From Burkholderiaceae bacterium (GTDB lineage: Bacteria > Pseudomonadota > Gammaproteobacteria > Burkholderiales > Burkholderiaceae_A): a stretch of DNA of 64,000 nt. The notes beneath the pieces were generated by a model. That model was given only the letters and a program-made list of their open reading frames with translations, was not told the DNA's origin and searched no databases. Positions within the stretch are counted from its first letter, which is position 1; every line of letters begins with the position of its first letter. This document shows positions 20,550-59,053 of this stretch, piece by piece. The position numbers were made by a program, and so were the translations under genes. Location of the stretch: assembly GCA_018882785.1 (NCBI GenBank), contig VERI01000007.1, forward strand, positions 1 through 64,000. Reading direction: 5' to 3'.

Positions 20550-20566
20550 GGTGGACTTAGTCCACC
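20550..20566. terminator. Hairpin between convergent ybiT and mobA
   Basis: A perfect 7-bp stem GGTGGAC/GTCCACC with a three-base TTA loop straddles the mobA stop codon (the loop is the mobA TAA read on the other strand). There is no T run; it may form a bidirectional 3' end. Confidence 0.4.
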
Positions 20567-21144
20567 ATGTCTTGCGGCGTATTGAGGTTTCGAAAAGACG
20601 ACTCATCACCAGGGGGTATCGGATAGGCCCCAATCTCCTCAAGCCATTGGCCGAGCTTTCGACGGCCATGTTGCAGGAAGTGATTCAGGTGGTCTTTCGC
20701 AGAGACCGGAATAAGCGCAAAGGTCGGGTGGGATTGGATGTAGGCAGCGCGGGTGAATGTGGCGGATGCCAGGCGCAGTTGGGATACCAGATCACGGGGA
20801 AAAAGAGGGCAGTCGCAGGGTACTGTGACGAGCCAGCGGTGCTCCATGGCGTTTAGTCCGGCGAGAATTCCAGCCAGCGGCCCCTGAAACGTCAGGTGAT
20901 CCTCGCCGTAGTGCGGGTCAGTGACGACCGGAAAGCCAAGTGCCTGATAGACAGGAAGATTTCGGTTTGCGTTTACGAGCATTGCATCGACCTGCGGACG
21001 CAGTCTATCGATGGCGATCTCGATGAGCCGGCGCCCGTGAAAATCGAGCAGCCCCTTGTCTTGACCGCCCATGCGATGGCCCTGTCCACCGCAAAGAATC
21101 AGTCCTGTGGTGGGCTCAGGATGGGTGTTCGGCACTGAGTTCAT
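20557..21144 (-). CDS. mobA: Molybdenum cofactor guanylyltransferase
   Basis: A 195-residue nucleotidyltransferase that attaches GMP to Mo-molybdopterin, giving the guanine dinucleotide form used by formate dehydrogenase. The GTP-binding signature LILCGGQGHRMGGQDKGLL is at residues 15-33, and VPCDCPLFP near 108 is the metal-binding block. Its start overlaps the upstream ferredoxin gene by 29 bp. FdnG in this window is the obvious client. Confidence 0.93.
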   Translation of the reverse strand: MNSVPNTHPEPTTGLILCGGQGHRMGGQDKGLLDFHGRRLIEIAIDRLRPQVDAMLVNANRNLPVYQALGFPVVTDPHYGEDHLTFQGPLAGILAGLNAMEHRWLVTVPCDCPLFPRDLVSQLRLASATFTRAAYIQSHPTFALIPVSAKDHLNHFLQHGRRKLGQWLEEIGAYPIPPGDESSFRNLNTPQDMVD

Positions 21145-21414: not shown

Positions 21415-21666
21415 TTAATCGATCTTCAGAAGTTTTTTTGCGGAGCCCAGGACCAACATGGCCTCGCCGTGTTTATCCTGCTTGTGCAGCCGTTCGCCCT
21501 CTGCGCGTAATTCTCGGATTTTTTTACTCGTGATGGGATCCAGGTGCTTCTGTTGGGATAAGGCCTGATCAATCTTAAATATCTCAAGTGGGCAGCTGTG
21601 GGCCCATGCCGCGGGCGCTGTTGCCAAAAGCAATAGCGACAAAATGTAGGGTTGATGGGCTTGCAT
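21415..21666 (-). CDS. Small secreted helical protein
   Basis: 83 residues: a Sec signal peptide (MQAHQPYILSLLLLATAPAAWA) followed by about 60 residues of charged helix (KKIRELRAEGERLHKQDKHGEAMLVLG), with one Cys near the mature N terminus. Function unknown; TPR-like or small helical periplasmic proteins look similar. It is divergent from the multicopper oxidase with 41 bp between starts, so the two may share regulation. Confidence 0.6.
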   Translation of the reverse strand: MQAHQPYILSLLLLATAPAAWAHSCPLEIFKIDQALSQQKHLDPITSKKIRELRAEGERLHKQDKHGEAMLVLGSAKKLLKID

Positions 21667-21707
21667 TTTTCAGGGCGCTCCTTAAGACTCTACGCTTCAC
21701 ACCCATT

Positions 21708-23126
21708 ATGAACCGACGACAAGTTCTTCAGGCCGGCTTGGGCTGCGCAACCCTGGCGGCGTCCATCGCCACGCCAGTCGCGTGGTCTGCCCGGGGCAGC
21801 CGAACCCGGGATCAGATGCTCATCGCTCAGCCTTCTCGGCTCAGCCTGCTGGGCGATGACTACCCCTCGACGGAGGTCTGGGGTTTCAACAATATGATTC
21901 CTGGTCCCGTGCTACGTGCCAATCAGGGCGATGTTCTTCGGGTGCGCTTTCGTAACCGTCTGCCCAGTGTCTCGACTATCCATTGGCATGGCATCCGGCT
22001 TCCCAATGCGATGGACGGCGTTCCAGGAATCACACAGCCCGCGGTGAAGCCTGGACAGGATTTCGTATATGAGTTTCCTCTGCCAGATGCGGGCACCTTC
22101 TGGTATCACCCCCATGTGGCGACCTATGAGCAGATTGGCCGGGGGCTTTATGGCGTGATTCAGGTAGAAGAACGCGAGCCGCCCGATGTCGATGAGGATG
22201 TGACCTGGGTTATTTCGGATGTGCTTCTGACCAAGGATGCAGCGATTTCTCCCAATTTCAAAAGCCTGCATGATGCAGCCCATGCTGGGCGGCTCGGCAA
22301 TATTGTTTTGGTGAATGGCCAACGCGGCCCGGCCGTGTTGGATGTTCGTGCAGGTCAAAGAATCAGGCTTCGTCTGCTCAATGCGGCCAGTGCACGAATT
22401 TTCCGAATCAAGATCCATGGCCATCAGCCGCTCGTTGTGGCCCACGACGGCCATCCCTGCACGCCCTATCGGCTGGGTGAATCTTTCTATTTCTCGCCGG
22501 GAAATCGTATGGATTTGATGCTGGATTGCACGGGCGCTCCAAATGCGCAGTTCGAAATCGAGGACGAATTCTTTCCAGCAATGCGAAATAAGGTGGGTTT
22601 GATTCGTTACGGCAGTCGTTCTGCCCAGGGGCTACGAAAGCCATTCGAGGGGCTGTCTCCGAACGGGTTGTTCGAGCCTGTGTTGGCGGGTGCCGAGTCC
22701 GTCAAGATGGTGCTGGAGGGTGGGGCGCTGTCGAATAAGGCGACCCGCGAGGCGATCTGGTTGATGAACGGAAAGGGCAACGATCACGGATCCCATATGG
22801 ACAGTCATGGTGCCCAGCCTGATCCTTTATTTACCTTTGAGCAGGGATGCACCGTTCGATGTCTTATTGATAACCGGACGGCGTGGTTTCATCCGATGCA
22901 CTTTCACGGGATAGTGTTTCGCGAACGCCTGCCGAGTGGGCAATGGGGACCATTTAAAGACTCCACGCTTGTATGGCCATTTAAGACCCAGGAGATTGCC
23001 TTCGTCGCCGAGAGTCCTGGAGATTGGATGATTCATTGCCACGTGGCTGAGCACCAGCACTCTGGACTAATGGGGACCTTTCGGGTCGCGAGTCTCTGCA
23101 AAACGCCCGCCACACCCAGGGCGTAA
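21708..23126 (+). CDS. Multicopper oxidase with twin-arginine signal
   Basis: A 472-residue periplasmic copper oxidase. The N terminus NRRQVLQAGLG is a Tat signal. All four copper-ligand blocks are visible: HWHG near 93, WYHPH near 132, HPMHFHG near 402, and HCHVAEHQHSGLM near 443. In the last block the HCH motif gives the type 1 Cys and the Met gives its axial ligand. It matches three-domain laccase/CueO-type enzymes, with no methionine-rich insert. The ATG at 21708 is chosen because it opens the Tat signal; the frame extends upstream without support. Substrate (Cu(I), Mn or phenolics) unknown. Confidence 0.9.
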   Translation: MNRRQVLQAGLGCATLAASIATPVAWSARGSRTRDQMLIAQPSRLSLLGDDYPSTEVWGFNNMIPGPVLRANQGDVLRVRFRNRLPSVSTIHWHGIRLPNAMDGVPGITQPAVKPGQDFVYEFPLPDAGTFWYHPHVATYEQIGRGLYGVIQVEEREPPDVDEDVTWVISDVLLTKDAAISPNFKSLHDAAHAGRLGNIVLVNGQRGPAVLDVRAGQRIRLRLLNAASARIFRIKIHGHQPLVVAHDGHPCTPYRLGESFYFSPGNRMDLMLDCTGAPNAQFEIEDEFFPAMRNKVGLIRYGSRSAQGLRKPFEGLSPNGLFEPVLAGAESVKMVLEGGALSNKATREAIWLMNGKGNDHGSHMDSHGAQPDPLFTFEQGCTVRCLIDNRTAWFHPMHFHGIVFRERLPSGQWGPFKDSTLVWPFKTQEIAFVAESPGDWMIHCHVAEHQHSGLMGTFRVASLCKTPATPRA

Positions 23127-23173: not shown

Positions 23174-24430
23174 TTATCGAAGCATCATTACATCGACCAC
23201 ATCGCCTGCGGAAAGCGGGCCGGACGCGTGAGGGAGTACAGCGAGTCCGTCGGCGTCGACCAGGGACTTCAGACTTGCAGCCCCCTGTGAGGCAGCGATC
23301 TCTGCAAGCCATTCTCCAGAGTCATCACGGCTCAGGGTGCATCGAAGAAATTCGGTACGACCAGGAATTTTTTTTGTCGCCCGGGTGAGGCGCGCGCGAA
23401 CAATTGGTTTACTGACAGGTGTTGCACCGGCGAGCTGCTGTAGGCAGGGGCCGACAATGCCTTGAAATGTCACAAAGGCAGCGACAGGATTGCCGGGCAG
23501 CCCAAAAAATGGGATTCGCTTGACATGGTTGGAATCCCAGACCCACCCCGCTGCAAGGGGGCGTCCAGGCTTGATTGCCAGCTTCCAGAATGCAATTTCT
23601 CCCAGTGATTGCATCGTTGCGCGCGTATGGTCTGCCTCCCCAACGCTGACGCCACCCGATGTGATGATGGCGTCCGCAAGAGCTGCTGCATGCTGAATGC
23701 TGTCGCGCAGACTTACGGGGTCATCCGGCACGATGCCGAGGTCGATGGCGAGGGCACCATATTCACGGATGAGTTCCAACAACATCGGCCGATTGGCATC
23801 GTAAATTTTTCCTGCAACGAGCGGGGATCCGGGATCTGTTACCTCGTCGCCCGTTGAAATCACTGCAACACGAATGGGCTGCATGACATCGACTTCGGCG
23901 ACGCCAATGGATGCCAACAACGCAAGTGCCTGGGCGCTGATTCGGGTGCCCGCACGGAGTGCGACTGCGCCTGTGGCGATATCCTCGCCCGCACGTCGAA
24001 TATTCAATAACGGGACGAGACCCTCCAGGCCAAATGTGATCGTGGCTGTCGCCTCATCCAGGGTCACACGTTCCTGCGGAATTACGACATCACAGCAGCC
24101 GGGTACCTGTGCGCCGGTAAAGATTCGGATGCAGCCGGTTGGGTCAGGATCATCCTGCAGCGGATGCCCCGCCAGAGATCTGCCAGTAACCTTCAATGTG
24201 TAAGGTTTTTCGCCTGGCGTTTTGTTCAGGCTGCCTAGGGAAAACGCGTAGCCATCCATGGCCGAGAGCGGGTGCTCGGGGACATTTTTGGGGCTGTGCA
24301 CATCCCGGGCAAGGACGCGGCCCCCTGACTTAGACAGGGGCACGCGCTCGGCCGCTGCTGACTGGGAGATCTGGCTGGAAATGACGCTCAGCGCCATTTC
24401 AATGGTCTGGGGAAGGAATTGGTCAGCCAT
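23174..24430 (-). CDS. moeA: Molybdopterin molybdenumtransferase
   Basis: A 418-residue enzyme that inserts molybdate into adenylylated molybdopterin. LSAMDGYAF near 55 is the family signature, the MPT-binding blocks IYDANRPML and TSGGVSVGEADH lie mid-protein, and FFGLPGNPVAAFVTF is present. I start it at the ATG 24430 with a GAGG ribosome binding site, close to E. coli MoeA (411 residues); the longer frame begins with TTG and has no such site. It is divergent from fdnG with a 275-bp gap. Together with mobA it supplies the cofactor for SoxC and FdnG. Confidence 0.93.
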   Translation of the reverse strand: MADQFLPQTIEMALSVISSQISQSAAAERVPLSKSGGRVLARDVHSPKNVPEHPLSAMDGYAFSLGSLNKTPGEKPYTLKVTGRSLAGHPLQDDPDPTGCIRIFTGAQVPGCCDVVIPQERVTLDEATATITFGLEGLVPLLNIRRAGEDIATGAVALRAGTRISAQALALLASIGVAEVDVMQPIRVAVISTGDEVTDPGSPLVAGKIYDANRPMLLELIREYGALAIDLGIVPDDPVSLRDSIQHAAALADAIITSGGVSVGEADHTRATMQSLGEIAFWKLAIKPGRPLAAGWVWDSNHVKRIPFFGLPGNPVAAFVTFQGIVGPCLQQLAGATPVSKPIVRARLTRATKKIPGRTEFLRCTLSRDDSGEWLAEIAASQGAASLKSLVDADGLAVLPHASGPLSAGDVVDVMMLR

Positions 24431-24540
24431 GTCCTCGGACGCCTGTGCGCTCTGCCTTATTTCGGAGAAGCCGAAAGCCTGCGCAAATGGCGGGTTGAAG
24501 TCAAACAAAGCGCTGATCGGGAGTTAAACGAGGACTTTTT

Positions 24541-24705: not shown

Positions 24706-27700
24706 ATGAACGCACCGATGTCTCGCCGACAGTTCTTTAAAGTCTGTTCGGCAGGTGTCGCGACTTCATCGGCAGTTGGTCTCGGGTTTGCGCCCGCGAC
24801 TGTGCATGCTGAAGTCCGGGCTTTTAAATTAGCCCGCACCACTGAAACCCGTGGCACTTGCCCATATTGCTCTGTGAGCTGTGGCGTGCTGATGTACTCA
24901 CGTACAGATGAAGCCACGAAGAAAACCAAACTAATCCATATCGAGGGAGATCCTGATCACCCGGTGAACAAGGGATCGCTGTGCCCCAAAGGCGCGGGTC
25001 TTTTGGACATGGTGCATTCTCCCAACCGCCTTCTGCATCCAGAGGTACGGGAGGCTGGTTCAAAAGAGTGGAAAAAGATTTCTTGGGAAGACGCCCTGAA
25101 TCGTGTCGCGCGCCATATGAAGGCGGATCGCGATGCTAATTTTGTCGAGAAGAACGACAAGGGCACTCCTGTTAATCGCTGGAACACGACATCACTGCTT
25201 GTATCAAGCGCATCCTCAAACGAGTCCGGTTACGCGTTGGTAAAAATGGCGCGCGGCCTGGGCATGGTTGCGCTCGATACACAAGCTCGTATCTGACACG
25301 CCCCCACGGTATCCAGTCTGGGTCCGACGTTTGGGCGTGGCGCCATGACAAATGGCTGGCCAGATATTCAGCATGCTGATCTGATTCTTGTGATGGGCGG
25401 CAACGCCGCCGAGGCCCACCCCTGTGGCTTTAAGTGGGTGACCGAGGCGATGGAGCACCGCAAGGCGAAGTTTGTGGTCGTCGATCCGCGCTTTACCCGC
25501 TCTGCGGCGGTTGCGGATTACTACGCGCCGATTCGGGTTGGAACAGACATCGCCTTCTTGGCTGGTGTGATCAATTACCTGCTCGCCAAGAACAAGATTC
25601 ACGAGGAGTATGTCAAGCACTACACCAATGCTCCGTTCTTGATTAACGGCGACTACAACTTTAAAGACGGTCTATTTGCCGGCTACGACGAAGAGAAGCG
25701 TTCCTACGATAAAAAGACGTGGACCTATCAGATGGGTGACGATGGCTTTGCCAAAGTCGATATGACCATGAAGGATCCCCGTTGTGTGTATCAGCTGATG
25801 AAGTCCCACTTCAGCCGCTACACACCCGAAAAAGTCTCTTCGATCTGTGGTACGCCGAAAGACCAGTTCTTGAAGGTCTGCGAGTACATTGCCGAGACCT
25901 CGCGTCCCGACAAGGTCATGACCATTCTGTACGCCCTTGGCTGGACGCAGCATTCCCATGGTTCGCAGAACATCCGCACTATGGCGATGATCCAGATGCT
26001 CCTGGGCAACGTGGGCCGGCCGGGTGGCGGCGTGAATGCGCTGCGTGGCCATGCCAACGTGCAGGGCATTACCGATATGTGTGCCTATTCAGAAGTGCTT
26101 TCGGGCTACATGCTCTCGCCCACGGAGGCTGATGAGACCCGTGAGAACTATCTGAAGGTGCGCACGCCCAAGGCGACGCGCCCGAACTCGATGAACTTCC
26201 CGCAGAACTTCCCGAAGTGGAATACCAGCCTGCTGAAGGCCTACTACGGGGATAACGCAACGAAGGACAATGACTTCGGCTACCACTATCTGCCCAAGCG
26301 TGACGGCGCCTATGATGTGCTGGCGAACTTTGAGCGCATGGTTCAGGGCAAGATGAATGGCCTGATCTGCCAAGGCTTTAATCCTTTGGCAGCGCTTCCG
26401 AACAAGGCCAAGCTACACAAGGCGTTGTCTAACCTGAAGTACATGGTGGTAATTGACCCGTTGAAGACCGAGTCAGCCGAGTTCTGGAAAAACTTTGGTG
26501 AGCTCAACAATGCAAAGCCAGAGGACATCAAGACGGAGGTGATCCGTCTGCCGTCCACCTGCTTTGCAGAGGATCCGGGCACGTTTACGAGTTCCGGTCG
26601 AGTGGTGCACTGGCACTACGCTGCGGCAGATGCGCCAGGCGAGGCTAAGACTGACCGAGAAATCATCGGTTCGCTCTTCACCAAGCTGCGCGATATGTAT
26701 CGCAAGGAAGGTGGTAAGGGCCGTGATCCATTGATGGCCATCAAGTGGAACTACACCAATCCATCAAACCCGGCTCCCGAAGAACTTTTGAAAGAGATTT
26801 CGGGCCGTGCATTAGTGGATATCAAGGATCCAAAAACGGGCGATGTGCTCTTTAAGGCGGGCGATCAACTGCCCGGCTTTGGTGTACTGCGCGATGATGG
26901 CTCCACCGAGTGCGGCAACTGGATCTATGGCGGCTGCTGGTCCCAGGCAGGTAATCTCACCGCGCGTCGGAATAACGCCGACGACGGTGGCATGGGGATT
27001 CACCAGCAGTGGGGCTACTCATGGCCCGCCAATCGCCGGGTGCTCTATAACCGTGCAGGTGCGGATCCCTCGGGCAAGGCCTGGGATGCTAAGCGTCCGA
27101 CGATTCAGTGGGATGGCAGCAAGTGGGCGGGCGTGGATATTCCCGACATTGCACCGGCGCTACCGCCGGCGACCGGCCCCTTCATCATGAATCCGGAAGG
27201 GGTTGGCCGTCTGTTTGCGCCTGGCATGGCCGAAGGGCCGTTCCCCGAGCATTACGAGCCTTTTGAGACGCCTGTTGGCAAGAACCTGATGCATCCGAAT
27301 AACCCCAAGGTCACCAGCAATCCATGTGCCCGGGTGTACAAGGCGGACGCGTCATCGTTCGGGAAAGCGGACGAGTTTCCATACGCAGCGACGACCTATC
27401 GTCTGACCGAGCACTTCCACTTCTGGACCAAGAACGTCGAGTCCAACGCCATTGTTCAGCCACAGCCTTTCGTTGAGATTGGCGAGGCACTCGCGAAAGA
27501 AAAAGGCATCAAAAACGGCGACATGGTCAGGGTCTGGAGTAACCGCGGGCAGGTCAAGGCGGTCGCCTCGGTCACCAAGCGGATTCGTCCGCTCACGGTC
27601 GATGGGAAGACGGTTCACCAGGTAGGCATTCCGATTCACTTCGGATTTGTTGGTGTGACGAAGAACGGCTTCCTGGCCAATGAACTCACGCCGTATGTGG

Positions 27701-27762
27701 GGGATGCCAATTCGCAGACGCCGGAGTTTAAGGCGTTTCTTGTCAACGTCGCTAAGGTCTAA
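24706..27762 (+). CDS. fdnG: Selenocysteine-containing formate dehydrogenase-N alpha subunit (FdnG/FdoG)
   Basis: A 1018-residue periplasmic catalytic subunit with an in-frame UGA at 25294-25296 that is read as selenocysteine (residue 197), giving ARI[18 protein letters not shown]. E. coli FdnG has the same context around its Sec196 and a similar length (1015). It has a Tat signal (SRRQFFK, 6-12), a 4Fe-4S site (Cys52, 55, 59, 93) and MGD-binding blocks ([13 protein letters not shown] and the C-terminal GIPIHFGF region). The enzyme oxidises formate and passes electrons to FdnH and FdnI. The RBS GGAGGG precedes the ATG. A SECIS hairpin directly follows the UGA, and selA, selB and selC are in the same run. 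Confidence 0.95.
25294..25339 (+). promoter_or_regulatory. UGA selenocysteine codon and SECIS hairpin in fdnG
   Basis: Immediately after the UGA, CACGCCC (25297-25303) pairs with GGGCGTG (25333-25339). Inside, positions 25307-25309 pair with 25324-25326, T25310 is bulged, 25311-25314 pair with 25320-25323 (one G-U), and the loop is AGUCU. A bulged U below a short upper stem whose loop contains GU is the SelB-recognised shape of bacterial SECIS elements, and the upper stem begins about 10 nt after the UGA, as in E. coli. Confidence 0.85.
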
Positions 27763-27773
27763 GGGGGATAACA

Positions 27774-28643
27774 ATGGCAACTGCAACAACCATGAACATT
27801 GTCAATCGCTCTGCGACCACGGCACCGATGCCGGTGAAGTCAAATCCGGAGATCTCCGTAGCGAAGCTCATCGACGAATCTAAGTGCATTGGCTGCAAGG
27901 CTTGTCAGGTGGCTTGTATGCAATGGAACGACAATCGAGATGAGATTGGATCGACCGTAGGGGTGTATGACAATCCCGCGGATCTCACCACGAAGTCCTG
28001 GACCGTGATGCGCTTTAACGAGGTCGAGCGCGCTGACGGCGGGCTTGACTGGTTGATTCGTAAAGACGGCTGTATGCACTGCGAGGATCCAGGCTGTCTA
28101 AAAGCATGTCCGGCTCCCGGCGCGATTGTTAAATACGAAAACGGCATTGTCGATTTCGTAAAAGACAACTGCATCGGCTGCGGCTATTGCGTGGCGGGCT
28201 GCCCATTCAACATCCCGCGGATCAGCAAGACCGATCACAAGGCCTACAAGTGCTCGCTGTGCTCTGACCGAGTTGCCGTAGGTGAGGGTGCAGCCTGTGC
28301 AAAGGCCTGCCCGACCAAGGCGATTCGGTTTGGCAAGAAAAAGGACTTGGTAGCCTGGGCGGATCAACGCGTGAAGGATCTGAAGGAGCGTGGCTATCAG
28401 AATGCAGCCCTCTACAACCCGCAGGGGGTAGGCGGCACGCATGTGATGTATGTGCTGCGTCATGGCGATAAGCCTGAGGCCTATAACGGCCTTCCAAGTG
28501 ATCCGCAGATCAGCCCGACGGTGAATCTGTGGAAGGGCATGACCAAGACCGTTCTGTCCTGGGGTATGGCGGCTGCTGTTGCTGTAGGCGTCGCGCACTA
28601 CTTCATCAAGGGACCGAAAGAGATCGATGAGACGGAGGCGTAA
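27774..28643 (+). CDS. fdnH: Formate dehydrogenase-N beta (iron-sulfur) subunit
   Basis: A 289-residue electron-transfer subunit with four 4Fe-4S motif sets: [11 protein letters not shown] (38-48), [14 protein letters not shown] near 101, [12 protein letters not shown] near 133, and CSLCSD near 158 with CAKACP near 174. A single membrane helix near 258-278 ([15 protein letters not shown]) anchors it, as in E. coli FdnH/FdoH. It passes electrons from FdnG to cytochrome b. It is 11 bp after fdnG with a GGGGG-type ribosome binding site and 3 bp before fdnI. Confidence 0.96.
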
Positions 28644-28646
28644 ACC

Positions 28647-29270
28647 ATGAGCCAAGGTAACGAAGTTCAGCGGTACGCCACAAACGAGCGCATAAACCAC
28701 TGGTTTACAGCCATCTGTTTTGTGCTGCTGGCCGCCAGTGGTCTGGCGTTCTTTCATCCGTCCTTCTGGTCGCTTTCCGCGGTGTTGGGTGGCGGGGAAC
28801 TATCCCGCTTCCTGCACCCGATTTTGGGCGTGCTGATGTTCCTGTCGTTTTTCATCTTTGCCATTCAGAAGATGGGTGACAACATGATGAAATCCTACGA
28901 CTGGCAATGGATGGGTCGTATCGGTGATGTATTGGCAAATCGGGATGACAACATGCCCGAGATCGGTAAATACAACGCCGCCCAGAAGCTGATGTACTGG
29001 TTCACGTTTCTGTTCATGATTCTGCTTTTGATCAGCGGAATTGTGATCTGGCGTCAGTTCTTCTCGCATAATTTTGCGATTGACACCATTCGTTGGGCTG
29101 CCGTGGTACACGCAGTGGCAGGGGTTTTGCTGATTATCACAATCATTGTTCACATTTATGCTGCGATCTGGGTGAAGGGAACGATGAGTGCGATTACGAA
29201 AGGCACCGTTTCCCGCGCTTGGGCCAAGCATCATCACCCGTTGTGGTATCGCTCGCTGGGCAATAAGTAA
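28647..29270 (+). CDS. fdnI: Formate dehydrogenase-N gamma subunit, cytochrome b556
   Basis: A 207-residue integral membrane protein with four predicted helices (about 20-40, 54-73, 112-132 and 150-171) and histidines placed as haem b ligands. RYATNERINHWFTAICFV at the start and HAVAGVLLIITIIVHIYAAIW near the end are typical of the family. It transfers electrons from FdnH to quinone. It is followed by a strong terminator, so fdnGHI can be an mRNA of its own with sel genes read through or expressed separately. Confidence 0.95.
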   Translation: MSQGNEVQRYATNERINHWFTAICFVLLAASGLAFFHPSFWSLSAVLGGGELSRFLHPILGVLMFLSFFIFAIQKMGDNMMKSYDWQWMGRIGDVLANRDDNMPEIGKYNAAQKLMYWFTFLFMILLLISGIVIWRQFFSHNFAIDTIRWAAVVHAVAGVLLIITIIVHIYAAIWVKGTMSAITKGTVSRAWAKHHHPLWYRSLGNK

Positions 29271-29311
29271 GCGCGCTTACAACAGTTATAAAAAGGAAGT
29301 GGTAGGAGACT

Positions 29312-29340
29312 CCGGCCCCGAAAGGGGCCGGTTTTTATTT
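29312..29340 (+). terminator. Intrinsic terminator after fdnI
   Basis: An 8-bp G/C stem (CCGGCCCC/GGGGCCGG) with a GAAA tetraloop followed by TTTTTATTT. This is a strong rho-independent terminator that separates fdnGHI from fdhE-selAB. Confidence 0.9.
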
Positions 29341-29377
29341 TGAAGATGGATTGCTGACGCGACAGGAAGACGACAAC

Positions 29378-30322
29378 ATGCCCACACCGATCATCACCGA
29401 TGGCACGATGGATAAGCTGGTTAAGGCGCCGCGGGTGGTTCTGCCGCAAGAGGCAGGACTATTTCGGGACCGTGCGGCCCGCTTCGATGCCTTGGCCCCG
29501 CGTGACGATTCGGGTGCCTATATGCGTTTCTTGTCGCATGTATGCCGTGCCCAGGCCGATGCCTACGGGGCACGGACGGCACATTCGGTGCCTGAGCGAG
29601 CAGTCGACAATAGCCGTCAGTACGGAATGCCGCCCCTATCGGCCCATGTGACGCCGCGGGACCCCCAGTGGCGCGCTGACCTGCGGGATATTCTCGATCG
29701 GGTCCAGGCCGACTACGGAGAGAGCAACACGCAGTTATCTACGGTTATTGGAAAGATCAGACGACAGCTTGAGTCCGACGCCTCAGCCCTTGAGGCGGTT
29801 GCGGATCGGATCATTGCGGGGGTGTCTGAGCCCGACGACAGTGCCAGTTATCCCTTCATTGGAGCGGCTCTACAGGTCTATTTTTCAAGGCTGGCAGCAA
29901 CCTTGACGCCCGAAGATGTTGCGGTCAGTGATGTTCCGACGGTCTGTCCGTGTTGCGGCATGCGGCCGACAGCTAGCCTGGTACGGATTAACCCGGATCG
30001 TATGAATTATCGGTACCTTGTGTGTTCCCTGTGTATGACAGAATGGAATCTGGAACGGGTAAAGTGCTCGTCCTGCGAGGAGGAAAAAGGCATCGGCTAC
30101 CTTTCCGTAGAGGTAGAGGGCCGAGCGCCTGCCGACGCAGCTATTCGGGCAGAGACCTGTGATGAATGTAAGACCTATCTGAAAATTTTTGTTCAAGAAA
30201 AGGATCCACAGATCGACCCAATTGCGGATGACTTAAATTCTCTGGCCTTGGATATGCTGGTCGATGAGAAGGGATATGCGCGCACAGGTCCAAATCTGCT
30301 CTTTTATCCAGGCCACGAATAG
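29378..30322 (+). CDS. fdhE: Formate dehydrogenase accessory protein FdhE
   Basis: A 314-residue cytosolic protein needed for assembly of membrane-bound, respiratory formate dehydrogenases. Four CxxC pairs in the C-terminal half (CPCC near 198, CSLC near 224, CSSC near 237, CDEC near 266) form the rubredoxin-like iron sites of FdhE. Start at ATG 29378, preceded by AGGAAG; an upstream in-frame start at 29351 adds nine residues without support. It lies 38 bp after the fdnI terminator and 2 bp before selA. Confidence 0.93.
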   Translation: MPTPIITDGTMDKLVKAPRVVLPQEAGLFRDRAARFDALAPRDDSGAYMRFLSHVCRAQADAYGARTAHSVPERAVDNSRQYGMPPLSAHVTPRDPQWRADLRDILDRVQADYGESNTQLSTVIGKIRRQLESDASALEAVADRIIAGVSEPDDSASYPFIGAALQVYFSRLAATLTPEDVAVSDVPTVCPCCGMRPTASLVRINPDRMNYRYLVCSLCMTEWNLERVKCSSCEEEKGIGYLSVEVEGRAPADAAIRAETCDECKTYLKIFVQEKDPQIDPIADDLNSLALDMLVDEKGYARTGPNLLFYPGHE

Positions 30323-30324
30323 TC

Positions 30325-31800
30325 ATGTCCTCCAAGATTCTGCCCGGTCCGGGCGAATCCACATCTGAACAAAATCTCCGGCATCTGCCTTCGGTGGATC
30401 GGCTGCTCGGTTCCAGTGCGCTTTCCAGCCTCGCGGATGCGTTAGGCCGGCCACTGGTCAAGCGGGCAGTGCAGCGCGCACTTTCCCAGGCGCGTGATCA
30501 CGCACCAAAGGACGGGCAGACGCCGAGCGAGCAGGCGCTGATTTCCATGGCGTCCGGATTTGCGCGGGAGGATGCGGCCTCGCGTATGCGGCCGGTAATC
30601 AATCTCACAGGAACCGTGATCCACACCAATCTTGGCCGGGCGCTGCTTGCGGAAGAGGCGATTGTGTCGGTGTCCCAGGCGATGCGAGGCTATAGCGCCT
30701 TAGAGTTTGATGTCGCATCGGGCGAGCGTGGGGATCGAGATGATGTGATTGAAGGCCTGATCTGCCAGTTGACAGGCGCAGAGGCTGCAACTGTTGTGAA
30801 TAACTGTGCCGCAGCAGTTCTGCTCTCTCTGGTTGCCCTTGGGGGCAGGAAGGAAGTCATTATTTCGCGTGGCGAGCAGATTGAGATAGGCGGCGCTTTT
30901 CGTATGCCGGACATTATGCGGGCCGCAAACTGTCGGCTTGTCGAGGTTGGCACCACGAACCGCACGCATTTGCATGACTATGCGTCCGCGATTACCCCGA
31001 AGTCGGCCCTCATCGTGAAGGCCCATCGGTCTAATTACGCCGTGACTGGATTTACCTCAGAGGTGGGTGATGCTGAGCTGGCTGCACTCGCCAAGAGATC
31101 CGGTGTGCTCTATATGGTCGATCTTGGCAGTGGCGCGCTGGTTGATATGAGTGCATGGGGCCTTCCGCGTGAGCCGCTGCCCTCAGACTCTCTGTCTAAG
31201 GGGGCCGATGTGGTGATGTTCTCTGGCGATAAGCTCCTGGGTGGGCCGCAGGCCGGCATCATTGTCGGCAGTCGGGCTGCGATCACCAGGATTAAACGTC
31301 ATCCTTTAAAGCGCACGCTACGGGTATCGAAGTTAGTTCTGGCGGCCCTTGAGGCAACGCTGCGTGTGTACGACTCGGGCCATCGGCTTCATGAGCGGCT
31401 GCCCGTGCTGGCGATGCTGACGCGGAGCCGAGACGCCATTCGAGAGTCCTGTATGCGTGTCGGAACCGCACTCGCCAACTATGCAGGCCCGGAGTTTGAG
31501 CTGTCGATCGAAGATTGTGCGAGTCAGATTGGTTCGGGCGCTTTGCCCGAGGAGAAACTTCCCTCGGCGGCAGTCGTCTTAAGGCCGCGGCTCGTATCGC
31601 GCCGCTCGGGGTCGTTGCTGAAGCAGACACTGACGCGGTTTCGGAGCCTTCCGACGCCGGTTGTCGGCCGAATTAATGATCAGGCAATCCTGTTTGACTG
31701 CCGCTGTTTGTCGATTGCCGATGAAGCCTTGTTGCTGGGTCAGCTCCGTGATGCCCAGCCTCCGGGGATCGCTGGTGGTCAGCAGGATCGGCCTGCCTAG
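30325..31800 (+). CDS. selA: Selenocysteine synthase, L-seryl-tRNA(Sec) selenium transferase
   Basis: A 491-residue PLP enzyme that converts Ser-tRNA(Sec) to Sec-tRNA(Sec) using selenophosphate. The PLP lysine is Lys303 in SGDKLLGGPQAG (E. coli Lys295). Other conserved blocks are NLTGTVIHTNLGRA near 93 and VEVGTTNRTHLHDY near 207. The length is slightly above E. coli SelA (463). The gene begins 2 bp after fdhE and ends 17 bp before selB, which fits a single fdhE-selA-selB unit that also runs into selC. Confidence 0.96.
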   Translation: MSSKILPGPGESTSEQNLRHLPSVDRLLGSSALSSLADALGRPLVKRAVQRALSQARDHAPKDGQTPSEQALISMASGFAREDAASRMRPVINLTGTVIHTNLGRALLAEEAIVSVSQAMRGYSALEFDVASGERGDRDDVIEGLICQLTGAEAATVVNNCAAAVLLSLVALGGRKEVIISRGEQIEIGGAFRMPDIMRAANCRLVEVGTTNRTHLHDYASAITPKSALIVKAHRSNYAVTGFTSEVGDAELAALAKRSGVLYMVDLGSGALVDMSAWGLPREPLPSDSLSKGADVVMFSGDKLLGGPQAGIIVGSRAAITRIKRHPLKRTLRVSKLVLAALEATLRVYDSGHRLHERLPVLAMLTRSRDAIRESCMRVGTALANYAGPEFELSIEDCASQIGSGALPEEKLPSAAVVLRPRLVSRRSGSLLKQTLTRFRSLPTPVVGRINDQAILFDCRCLSIADEALLLGQLRDAQPPGIAGGQQDRPA

Positions 31801-31817
31801 CTTCGGTCGAGTATCTG

Positions 31818-33734
31818 ATGATTGTTGGAACCGCTGGCCATATTGATCACGGCAAGACCTCGTTGGTTCGCCGTCTCACCGGCCGCGATACAGATCGGCT
31901 GCCGGAAGAAAAGCGCAGAGGGATCTCGATTGAGCTTGGCTATGCATATCTGGGAATCGACGAGAACGCTTCCGATTCACAGCAGCATATTGGGTTCATT
32001 GATGTCCCCGGTCATGAGCGTTTTGTGCATGCCATGGTCTCGGGTGCCACAGGAATTGATTTCGCATTGTTGGTGGTTGCCGCCGATGACGGACCAATGC
32101 CGCAGACCCGGGAGCATCTCGAGATTCTGAAGCTCTTAGGCATTTCGCGTGGGGCGATTGTGGTGACGAAAATCGATATGGTCGATCCGTCTCAAGGCGA
32201 TCTGGCGATCACCGCGATCGCGGATGTTGTGGCCGCCCAGCCCGCCGAGCGATGGCCGTTGTTTCCTGTCTCCTCGGTAACGGGAGAGGGTATCGATGCG
32301 CTGCGTGATTTTCTTCGGGCTGAGGCCAAGACGGTACAGACATCGATTGACGAAGGGATGTTTCGACTTGCAGTGGATCGTGCGTTTTCTCTTCCTGGAA
32401 TTGGTACGGTCGTGACCGGCACGGCGCATGCTGGAAGGGTCGCGGTGGGCGATGACGTGAGTCTTTATAACCCGGAGCGTGCCGATCCAGTACGTGCGCG
32501 TGTGCGTTCCGTGCACGCCCAAGACCATCCTGCAGAGGTGGGCGTGAAAGGCCAGCGCCTTGCCTTAAATCTCGTGGGCGTGTCCGTAGAGGATGTGCCG
32601 CGCGGCAGCTGGATCAACAGCATGGAACTGGATAATCGGATTCTACGGTTTGACGTACAGCTTTCTATGTCGGCATTACATGATCGTACCGTCGTACAGG
32701 GGCTTGAGGTCCATCTGCATCACGGCGCCGCCGATATGATGGCCAGGGTGTATCCGTTGAGCGTAGAGCGCGCCGCCCCGGGCGCGCAGTGTTTTGCCTC
32801 GATTCTGCTGCCTGCTCCTGTCGCAGCCTGCCGTGGTGACCGTCTGGTCATTCGCGATAGCCAGGCCCAGACGACCTTGGCCGGCGCTACGATTCTCGAC
32901 GTTCATCCTCCGAACCGTGGACGCAGAGCCGTGGGTCGCCTCGCAAGCCTACAGACCTTATCGGCTGCTGATGATGTCACCAGCCTATTGGAGCTGGCAT
33001 TATCGGGCCCAATCTTAATTTCGCGCATCGGACAAGGATGGAATCGTAGACGCCATCAGATTGATGCGATGGTCAGGCAGGGAGATTTGGTGGTGGCCGC
33101 GGGCGTGATCTTTCATCCGTCACATTGGGCCGCCTATTTAGAGCGGTTGATACTCGCGGTAGACGAGACCCATGTGCGTGAGCCAGAGATGCCCGGCATG
33201 GAGATTAATCGTGCCCGCCGTGTTGTCGCCCCGCAGCTTGAATTATCTGCATTTGATGAATTAATTTCCCGCCTTGTCAGCGATAAACGTCTTGAGCGTC
33301 GGGGTGCGTTTCTTGCCCGACCGGGCCACACGGTCGAATTGAGTAAGGCCGAACGGAATCTGTGGAATTCTCTCGCACCGCTGCTGGAGCAGTCACCCTA
33401 CAATCCGCCCCGGGTTAGGGATATCGCCAAGACGACCAATATCCCGGAGACTGAAATTCGTGCCAATCTTCGGCGTGTTGCGCGCGTTGGGGAGGTGACG
33501 TTGGTCGCGCTGGATCATTTCTTTTTGACGGCTCGAGTAAGTGAAATGGCCCAGATTGCAAAGAAACTTCATGATCAGCACGGTGCGGTGCGAGCGTCTG
33601 ATTTTCGTGATCAGATCGGTGGCGGCCGCAAAGTGGCGATACAGATCCTGGAGTTCTTTGATCGCGTGGGTTACACGCGTCGCGTGCGCGATGACCACCT
33701 GATTCGAAGAGACAACCCCTTCGAGTTGCATTAA
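31818..33734 (+). CDS. selB: Selenocysteine-specific translation elongation factor
   Basis: A 638-residue GTPase that brings Sec-tRNA(Sec) to the ribosome at UGA codons with a SECIS. GTP motifs: GHIDHGKTSLV (7-17), DVPGHERFVH near 67 and TKIDM near 121. Domains II and III follow, then C-terminal winged helices (about 390-638) that bind the SECIS RNA. The start MIVGTAGHIDHGKT is typical of SelB. Its only visible client in the window is the UGA in fdnG. The selC gene begins 39 bp after its stop. Confidence 0.96.
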   Translation: MIVGTAGHIDHGKTSLVRRLTGRDTDRLPEEKRRGISIELGYAYLGIDENASDSQQHIGFIDVPGHERFVHAMVSGATGIDFALLVVAADDGPMPQTREHLEILKLLGISRGAIVVTKIDMVDPSQGDLAITAIADVVAAQPAERWPLFPVSSVTGEGIDALRDFLRAEAKTVQTSIDEGMFRLAVDRAFSLPGIGTVVTGTAHAGRVAVGDDVSLYNPERADPVRARVRSVHAQDHPAEVGVKGQRLALNLVGVSVEDVPRGSWINSMELDNRILRFDVQLSMSALHDRTVVQGLEVHLHHGAADMMARVYPLSVERAAPGAQCFASILLPAPVAACRGDRLVIRDSQAQTTLAGATILDVHPPNRGRRAVGRLASLQTLSAADDVTSLLELALSGPILISRIGQGWNRRRHQIDAMVRQGDLVVAAGVIFHPSHWAAYLERLILAVDETHVREPEMPGMEINRARRVVAPQLELSAFDELISRLVSDKRLERRGAFLARPGHTVELSKAERNLWNSLAPLLEQSPYNPPRVRDIAKTTNIPETEIRANLRRVARVGEVTLVALDHFFLTARVSEMAQIAKKLHDQHGAVRASDFRDQIGGGRKVAIQILEFFDRVGYTRRVRDDHLIRRDNPFELH

Positions 33735-33773
33735 AAGATTAATTTTGGAGCGTGATGTCACAGGTGAGATTTC

Positions 33774-33869
33774 GGAAGGGTGTCGTGGCCCGGTGGTCCG
33801 GTCAGACTTCAAATCTGATAGGGGTTGCCAGCAATCCCTGGTGGGTTCGACTCCCATACCCTTCCGCCA
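33774..33869 (+). tRNA. selC: tRNA-Sec (UCA anticodon)
   Basis: A 96-base gene with an 8-bp acceptor stem (33774-33781 with 33858-33865), discriminator G and encoded CCA. The anticodon loop CUUCAAA gives the UCA anticodon at 33809-33811, which reads UGA. The extra arm is long (GGGGTTGCC...), and the acceptor and T arms have the lengths typical of selenocysteine tRNA. It lies directly after selB with no terminator seen between them. Confidence 0.95.
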
Positions 33870-33887: not shown

Positions 33888-34370
33888 ATGGAACTTGAGC
33901 AGATACTCGCGGAGCTGCCTGCGGACTGCCTTTATGCCGCCGAGCAGGATCTCTGGATCCGTCAAGAGGGTGAAGAGGTTGTCGTCGGCGCCATACGATT
34001 TGTGGTCGAACATGGCCAGTTCATGCTTTTTTATCCACGCCCCTGTGAGGTTCCCGTCATGCGCGACCGGTCCCTTGGCGTGATGGAGACCGCCAAGACG
34101 GCGGTTGCGATTTCATGCCCACTGAGCTGCACGATTATCGAGACCAATCAGGCTGTCCAGATGGATATCAGCGTGGTCACTCAGGATCCCTATGGTGCCG
34201 GATGGCTCTATCGTTTAAAACCAATGGCATGGGAGGAGGAGTCCTCTTTCCTGATGGGAGTGGATGAGTACCGCTCATGGCTTGTGGCCCATCATCGTGA
34301 GCGGCTTCGGCCGCCTAATCCGCAGCACCATGAGCTGCCCCCGATTGATCCGCAGAACATCAGCTACTGA
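33888..34370 (+). CDS. GcvH-like lipoyl-carrier domain protein
   Basis: A 160-residue protein whose central 85 residues read as a lipoyl-carrier of the glycine-cleavage H-protein family: VGAIRFVVEHG, GVMETAKTAVAI with Lys70 in the lipoylation position, PLSCTIIETN and DPYGAGWLYRL. The usual PxSG turn is PLSC here. No gcvT or gcvP gene is nearby. It starts 18 bp after selC at ATG 33888 and is followed 3 bp later by a DsrE-family gene. A lipoate-bound sulfur carrier, as in LbpA of other sulfur oxidisers, is one possible reading. The fold call is good, but the function is inferred. Confidence 0.7.
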   Translation: MELEQILAELPADCLYAAEQDLWIRQEGEEVVVGAIRFVVEHGQFMLFYPRPCEVPVMRDRSLGVMETAKTAVAISCPLSCTIIETNQAVQMDISVVTQDPYGAGWLYRLKPMAWEEESSFLMGVDEYRSWLVAHHRERLRPPNPQHHELPPIDPQNISY

Positions 34371-34373
34371 TCG

Positions 34374-34751
34374 ATGGCCGTGACACGGGTGGTGTTGGTG
34401 ATGTGGCAGGCAGATCCGGGCGCACCGGAGAAGTCAGCAGCGCCGTTTGTATATGCGCTGTGTGCCCGAGCCCTGGATCTGGAGGTCGAGATTCATCTGA
34501 CATCTTCTGCGGTCCGCTGGGCATTTGAGGGCGTTGCTGCATCGGCTGTATCGGATCGGCGCGGTGAGCAAACCATTCTCGGATATATCCAGCGATGCCA
34601 TGAGATGGGTGTGAAGATCTACACGTGCGGAATGGCACTTTCGGAGCATCATCAAGGCGAGCGCATCATTCCTGAAATTACCGGACAGACCGGTGCGACT
34701 GCGGTGATGGCCCAGCTGCAGCGCGAGGACACGCGGGTGCTGGTCTTTTAG
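34374..34751 (+). CDS. DsrE-family protein
   Basis: A 125-residue protein with the DsrE/DsrF-like fold: a Rossmann-like start (RVVLVMWQADPG), the mid segment VEIHLTSSAVRWAFEG, and GVKIYTCGMALSEHH with Cys85 at the position where this superfamily has its active-site, sulfur-binding Cys. Such proteins bind or move sulfane sulfur. It is 3 bp after the lipoyl-carrier gene and its stop overlaps the next GTG start by one base, so the three genes form a unit. The substrate is unknown. Confidence 0.65.
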   Translation: MAVTRVVLVMWQADPGAPEKSAAPFVYALCARALDLEVEIHLTSSAVRWAFEGVAASAVSDRRGEQTILGYIQRCHEMGVKIYTCGMALSEHHQGERIIPEITGQTGATAVMAQLQREDTRVLVF

Positions 34752-58042: not shown

Positions 58043-59053
58043 GTCAACTGAACGATCCATCGGATGCCCGGATACCACCTGGGCACTGTCGTAGCGGGAA
58101 AAGTTGTTCCGCATCGAACGTCGGTAAGTCGGATCGTAGTGGTGTACCAAGAGCGAGGTCACCAGTGATGACCAGTCATGACGCTCGATATAGCCTCGCC
58201 ACTCGTTAATTCTGTCGCCTCCCACTAGGGGCCTGAGCCGCTCCAGCTGGGAGATGAGCGTGTCAGGGTTATTGAAGAAATGGGAATAGTCTTGCAAGAG
58301 GTATCGGACCCGTTCTTCCAACGAGGGGTTGAGCTCAATACAGGGCGATGTACGCATACGCATGATGAGCGAGGAAGGTACCTGGAGCGCTCCTATTTTT
58401 TTGCTTTCTGACTCGACAAAAACCTGTCTGGCCGGATCGAGCCGGCGCAAGATATTCCATACTGCAGTATCGAATGCCTTCTGGCTGGGCTGTCCACCCG
58501 TGGGCTCTGAACCTAAAAGAGAACCGCGATGGTTCGCCAACGCCTCAAGATCCAGAATCTGATGCCCTTGTTGTCCGAGTGTGCGGAGAAACAGACTTTT
58601 TCCGGCGCCCGTCACACCGCAGATGACGGTGAACTGAAACGAAGAAGCAAGCCGCTCTAGTGCACTGACGACGTGACGTCGAAACGCAACATAGCCACCC
58701 GACAGGAGCGTCGGCCGCCAGCCAATTCGCTCCATGACGGTGGCCATGGCCTGACTCCGATTGCCACCTCGCCAGCAGTAAATGAGCGGCCGCCATTCCC
58801 GCGGCATTGCATCGAATTGGGTCTCAAGGGCGTTGGCAATATTTCGAGCGACAAGCGCGGCCCCTTTTTTCTTGGCCTCGAATGCAGATGCGGCATAGCG
58901 TCTGCCGATATCGTCCCGTTCCATATCGCTGAGCACAGGGACATTGATGGCACCTGGCAGATGGTCAACTGCCCATTCCCCCGGACTACGGACATCGATG
59001 ATGGTGTCAAACCGATCCCATTGCTCAGTAACGGTTTCGATTTCCAGGTGCAT
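58028..59053 (-). CDS. mnmH: tRNA 2-selenouridine synthase MnmH (SelU)
   Basis: A 341-residue enzyme that replaces the sulfur of 2-thiouridine at the wobble position of some tRNAs with selenium, using selenophosphate, via a geranylated intermediate. A rhodanese domain carries the catalytic Cys93 in IYCWRGGNRS, followed by a P-loop domain with GVTGAGKS near 144. This makes it a second selenium-dependent function in the window. It is the last gene of the minus-strand run from queF and starts 24 bp after the GST stop. Confidence 0.94.
   Translation of the reverse strand: MHLEIETVTEQWDRFDTIIDVRSPGEWAVDHLPGAINVPVLSDMERDDIGRRYAASAFEAKKKGAALVARNIANALETQFDAMPREWRPLIYCWRGGNRSQAMATVMERIGWRPTLLSGGYVAFRRHVVSALERLASSFQFTVICGVTGAGKSLFLRTLGQQGHQILDLEALANHRGSLLGSEPTGGQPSQKAFDTAVWNILRRLDPARQVFVESESKKIGALQVPSSLIMRMRTSPCIELNPSLEERVRYLLQDYSHFFNNPDTLISQLERLRPLVGGDRINEWRGYIERHDWSSLVTSLLVHHYDPTYRRSMRNNFSRYDSAQVVSGHPMDRSVDLAAV

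Follow-up and report, generated by a model that had tools for sequence, protein, structure and literature searches.

A predicted selenocysteine-containing formate dehydrogenase-N encoded in an fdn-sel block of a burkholderialean genome

The selenocysteine (Sec)-containing formate dehydrogenase FdhA has been described as the most widespread selenoprotein family in bacteria (PMC1794560; PMC13188914). Zhang et al. (2006; PMC1794560) reported clusters which combine fdhA with selA-selB-selC in Pseudomonadales as well as in Betaproteobacteria, and such an arrangement has been known in Beta- and Gammaproteobacteria since 2006. Regarding the mRNA signal, a review (PMC8659212) singles out U17 and G23-U24 as conserved bases of key importance in the upper SECIS hairpin; SelB binds at U17 and G23, and UGA decoding is lost when these are mutated. 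The locus described here lies in a 64 kb window, which is the whole stretch of DNA that was analysed, and its features are collected in Table 1. An earlier note on this DNA had proposed that two frames seemingly broken by a stop form one gene with a recoded UGA.

Table 1. Coordinates of the features of the fdn-sel region, as positions in the window.
Feature	Position	Strand	Support
mobA, molybdenum cofactor guanylyltransferase	20557..21144	-	
moeA, molybdopterin molybdotransferase (divergent neighbour; molybdenum cofactor supply)	23174..24508	-	
fdnG-type formate dehydrogenase-N alpha subunit, 1018 aa, predicted Sec197	24706..27762	+	TIGR01553; 1KQF_A
SECIS element (predicted), Rfam SECIS_3 (RF01989)	25291..25349	+	covariance-model match, 76.6 bits
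UGA codon predicted to encode selenocysteine, residue 197	25294..25296	+	alignment to 1KQF_A; TGA in 93/93 homologous loci
fdnH, iron-sulfur beta subunit	27774..28643	+	TIGR01582, 436 bits, above cut-off
fdnI, cytochrome b gamma subunit	28647..29270	+	TIGR01583, 196.7 bits, above cut-off
Stem-loop with T tail resembling a terminator, in the fdnI-fdhE gap	29312..29331	+	strongest such site of the region
fdhE, formate dehydrogenase accessory protein	29378..30322	+	TIGR01562, 263.6 bits, above cut-off
selA, L-seryl-tRNA(Sec) selenium transferase	30325..31800	+	TIGR00474, 556.7 bits, above cut-off
selB, selenocysteine-specific elongation factor	31818..33734	+	TIGR00475, 410.1 bits, above cut-off
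selC, tRNA-Sec, anticodon TCA	33774..33869	+	RF01852, 74.6 bits; ARAGORN

The fdnG frame and its in-frame UGA codon

Translation of the fdnG region with the standard table 11 yields two ORFs, the first ending at 25296 and the second starting at 25345, as would be expected if the UGA were a true stop that has left two fragments of a pseudogene or had arisen from a sequencing or assembly error. With the TGA read as Sec, however, a single frame of 1018 residues with one recoded codon (U197) is obtained, and no further stop occurs in its 1018 codons. The product matches TIGR01553, the NCBIfam model for the formate dehydrogenase-N alpha subunit, with 1447.7 bits against a cut-off of 814.2, and the match is full length, covering residues 5-1017 on model positions 2-1009 of 1009. 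Among proteins of solved structure, E. coli FdnG is the best match (1KQF chain A; phmmer E = 0), and the alignment places residue 197 on chain residue 196, printed as X, in a gap-free block, which bears out the proposal that the UGA occupies the position of E. coli Sec196. The residue is found in a U-H-A-P context, in agreement with the active-site pattern of Sec or Cys followed by HxP, and the in-frame peptide which the earlier note had read beyond the UGA was recovered on translation. A twin-arginine motif (SRRQFFK) has been detected at the N-terminus of the protein, while a GGAGGG sequence resembling a ribosome-binding site lies upstream of the ATG at 24706.

Comparison with relatives, which range from members of the same genus to E. 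coli, has revealed a TGA at the Sec codon in every one of the 93 loci that could be aligned there. A few of these loci are duplicates retrieved with two tools, and distinct SECIS sequences number 66. Five further genomes of the genus are represented, with 87-94% identity at the protein level, while E. coli shows 59%. Most of the named relatives belong to the Betaproteobacteria (Burkholderiales, Rhodocyclales, Sulfuritalea, Sulfurisoma), along with Pseudomonas/Stutzerimonas, Geobacter, Nitrospirae and others. In a genome search, each of 11 full-length orthologues, the window's own counted, contained exactly one internal stop, a TGA, and no Cys version of the FdnG orthologue was found among the best 80 loci, a set biased to the closest relatives. 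A pseudogene or an assembly error was rejected because none of the 93 loci lacks the UGA. With the SECIS element conserved through compensatory changes and the decoding genes located within the same block as well, a true stop has next to no chance of being the correct explanation. Judged from sequence, in which nothing of weight was found to contradict this reading, the region is almost certainly one FdnG-type gene, the UGA of which is predicted to be read as Sec.

It had also been anticipated that an automatic pipeline would split such a gene or call it a pseudogene, and this holds in part. Annotation tools often truncate selenoprotein genes of this kind according to a 2026 review (PMC13188914), but RefSeq does not divide the E. 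coli homologue that was compared, giving it one CDS of 3051 bp (it adjoins fdhD and is hence fdoG-like, though labelled fdnG), which indicates that at least one automatic pipeline copes with the FdnG family.

The SECIS element and its coding sequence

A cmscan of the whole 64 kb window placed SECIS_3 directly at the UGA with 76.6 bits (E 2.6e-16), above the gathering threshold of 63 bits. Folding showed that the lower stem begins directly 3' of the UGA codon, and that the upper hairpin, of the SelB-binding type, lies at 25308-25325, 11 nt past the UGA; one U is bulged in it and its loop reads GUC. The earlier note had described a SECIS hairpin with a bulged U and a GU-containing loop within about 10 nt of the UGA; its nature and close succession have been confirmed, but the distance requires amending, as the lower stem starts at once and the upper hairpin 11 nt after. 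Numbered from the U of the UGA, the bulged U17 is found at 25310 and the loop G23-U24 at 25316-25317. The two points on which the note had staked its reading beforehand, the alignment of the UGA with a known Sec position and the folding of the hairpin as a SECIS, both came out in its favour.

The bulged T and the loop GT are invariant across the 66 distinct homologous sequences, and each pair of the upper stem is retained in 97-100% of them, with two-sided changes observed between A-U and G-C, U-G and G-C, and C-G and A-U. The lower stem is looser, with single pairs formed in as few as 45% of the same sequences. Folding energy was not exceptional when compared to shuffled sequences (z of -1.79 for 47 nt and -0.46 for 59 nt), and as shuffles fold almost equally well, the case for a SECIS rests on the covariance-model score and conservation rather than on stability. 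Both the loose lower stem and the ordinary stability can be explained by the element having to encode protein as well. These data support the assignment of the hairpin as a SECIS, for which SelB binding and Sec insertion are predicted. No second SECIS_3 was found in the genome, a search using a model built on the fdnG-type element, which other selenoproteins could escape.

The coding function of the element is also of interest with respect to two residues near the UGA. The window encodes PTVSSLGP where most relatives have PTVASLAP, and within 25306-25327 the TCC codon of residue 203 is paired with the GGT codon of residue 206 in the upper stem of the SECIS. Among 87 FdnG sequences, this pair of residues is Ala-Ala in 70, Ser-Gly in 16 and Thr-Ala in 1, with neither Ser-Ala nor Ala-Gly occurring, and the association is tied for the strongest among 1712 local residue pairs tested. 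On an FdnG tree built without the columns of 203 and 206, six changes are required to explain the Ser-Gly state, and well-supported branches force a minimum of five of them. It may be, with roughly even chances, that the SECIS stem constrains the protein so that Ser203 and Gly206 replace Ala203 and Ala206 only jointly, because a single changed codon would break the hairpin. Coupling at the level of the protein itself could also account for the pattern, as could the exchange of a short stretch of sequence. If the RNA constraint is real, the FdnG sequence beside the active site would be set in part by an RNA element and not by catalysis.

The fdn-sel block and other selenium and molybdenum genes

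The block fdnGHI-fdhE-selA-selB-selC spans 24706-33869. The strongest terminator-like site of the region, where the total number of such sites is at chance level, falls between fdnI and fdhE, and fdnGHI may therefore be transcribed partly apart from fdhE-selAB. Outside the block, selD is located at another place in the genome (C83:34572-35498, 415 bits, without an internal stop), and fdhD at yet another (C20:19420-20148). The genome holds selA, selB, selC and selD, so that no known part of the Sec-decoding pathway is missing. This has a bearing on whether the UGA might be read through as another residue, by a near-cognate tRNA such as that for Trp or under a reassigned code. Any UGA can show some read-through, which lends this explanation nothing specific, whereas the codon occupies the known Sec position of FdnG, is followed by a curated SECIS and is accompanied by a tRNA-Sec with a TCA anticodon, SelA, SelB and SelD; decoding as anything other than Sec is thus very improbable.

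Of 80 related loci, 46 have fdnG, fdnH, fdnI, fdhE, selA and selB in this order without interruption, and in 38 selC comes next; many of the remainder are short contigs in which the block is cut by contig ends. In a set of 41 related genomes, a full FdnG orthologue is always accompanied by SelB and by a strong match to tRNA-Sec. Two genomes of the same family (G008 and G012), both approximately 85% complete, carry selB, with a strong tRNA-Sec match in G008, and an FdnG orthologue was not found in either. A further variation has been observed in a Burkholderiaceae MAG (L044), where two tandem fdnG-fdnH-fdnI sets precede fdhE-selA-selB. In two genomes of the same order (G029 and G036) the SelD genes contain one internal TGA, and these SelD proteins are probably Sec-containing.

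Additional genes have been detected in the surroundings of the block. The tRNA 2-selenouridine synthase gene selU/ybbB is located in the same window (58094-59011, -; TIGR03167, 345 bits), meaning that both selenium-use traits occur on the contig. Following selC, a GcvH-like (lipoyl-carrier-like) protein and a DsrE-family protein are encoded at 33888-34751, a pair which holds its place in many loci of Burkholderiales and Rhodocyclales and for which a link to sulfur metabolism or to lipoate-binding proteins is possible. A multicopper oxidase gene is found upstream of moeA (21588-23126, +).

Proposed mechanism and comparison with known systems

By analogy with the E. coli homologue, the product of fdnG would be the catalytic subunit of a membrane-bound formate dehydrogenase-N facing the periplasm. 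SelA and SelD would produce Sec-tRNA(Sec) on the selC tRNA, and SelB would bind both this tRNA and the SECIS hairpin after the UGA, delivering the former to the ribosome for decoding of the codon as Sec197. The residue is expected to bind metal, and the Mo-bis-MGD/[4Fe-4S] protein would be exported by the Tat system, after which FdnH and FdnI would relay the electrons from formate to the quinone pool.

When compared to E. coli FdnGHI (1KQF), the system shares homology along the full length of the alpha subunit, the Sec at the aligned position, the H and I subunits, the SECIS class and the Tat motif. It differs in having fdhE and selA-selB-selC directly after the structural genes, in one block, and in a SECIS variant which encodes VSSLGP instead of VASLAP. 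The Sec formate dehydrogenases of the sulfate-reducer type with known structures (e.g., 8CM4 and 6SDR), which their depositors call selenocysteine-containing, are homologous along the whole alpha subunit as well but more distant, as phmmer scores them at 850-857 bits and E. coli FdnG at 1385. The clusters of Zhang et al. (2006; PMC1794560) have the same selABC operon and neighbouring formate dehydrogenase selenoprotein gene, often the sole selenoprotein, and no relevant difference from them has been detected, the present genome being another burkholderialean example. The locus is an ordinary and already known case, a Sec-containing formate dehydrogenase-N of the standard type within an equally standard fdn-sel block, in a genome that holds everything needed for Sec decoding and for a respiratory formate dehydrogenase. 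While no new mechanism is added, the case indicates that a recoded stop can be caught by reading the raw sequence.
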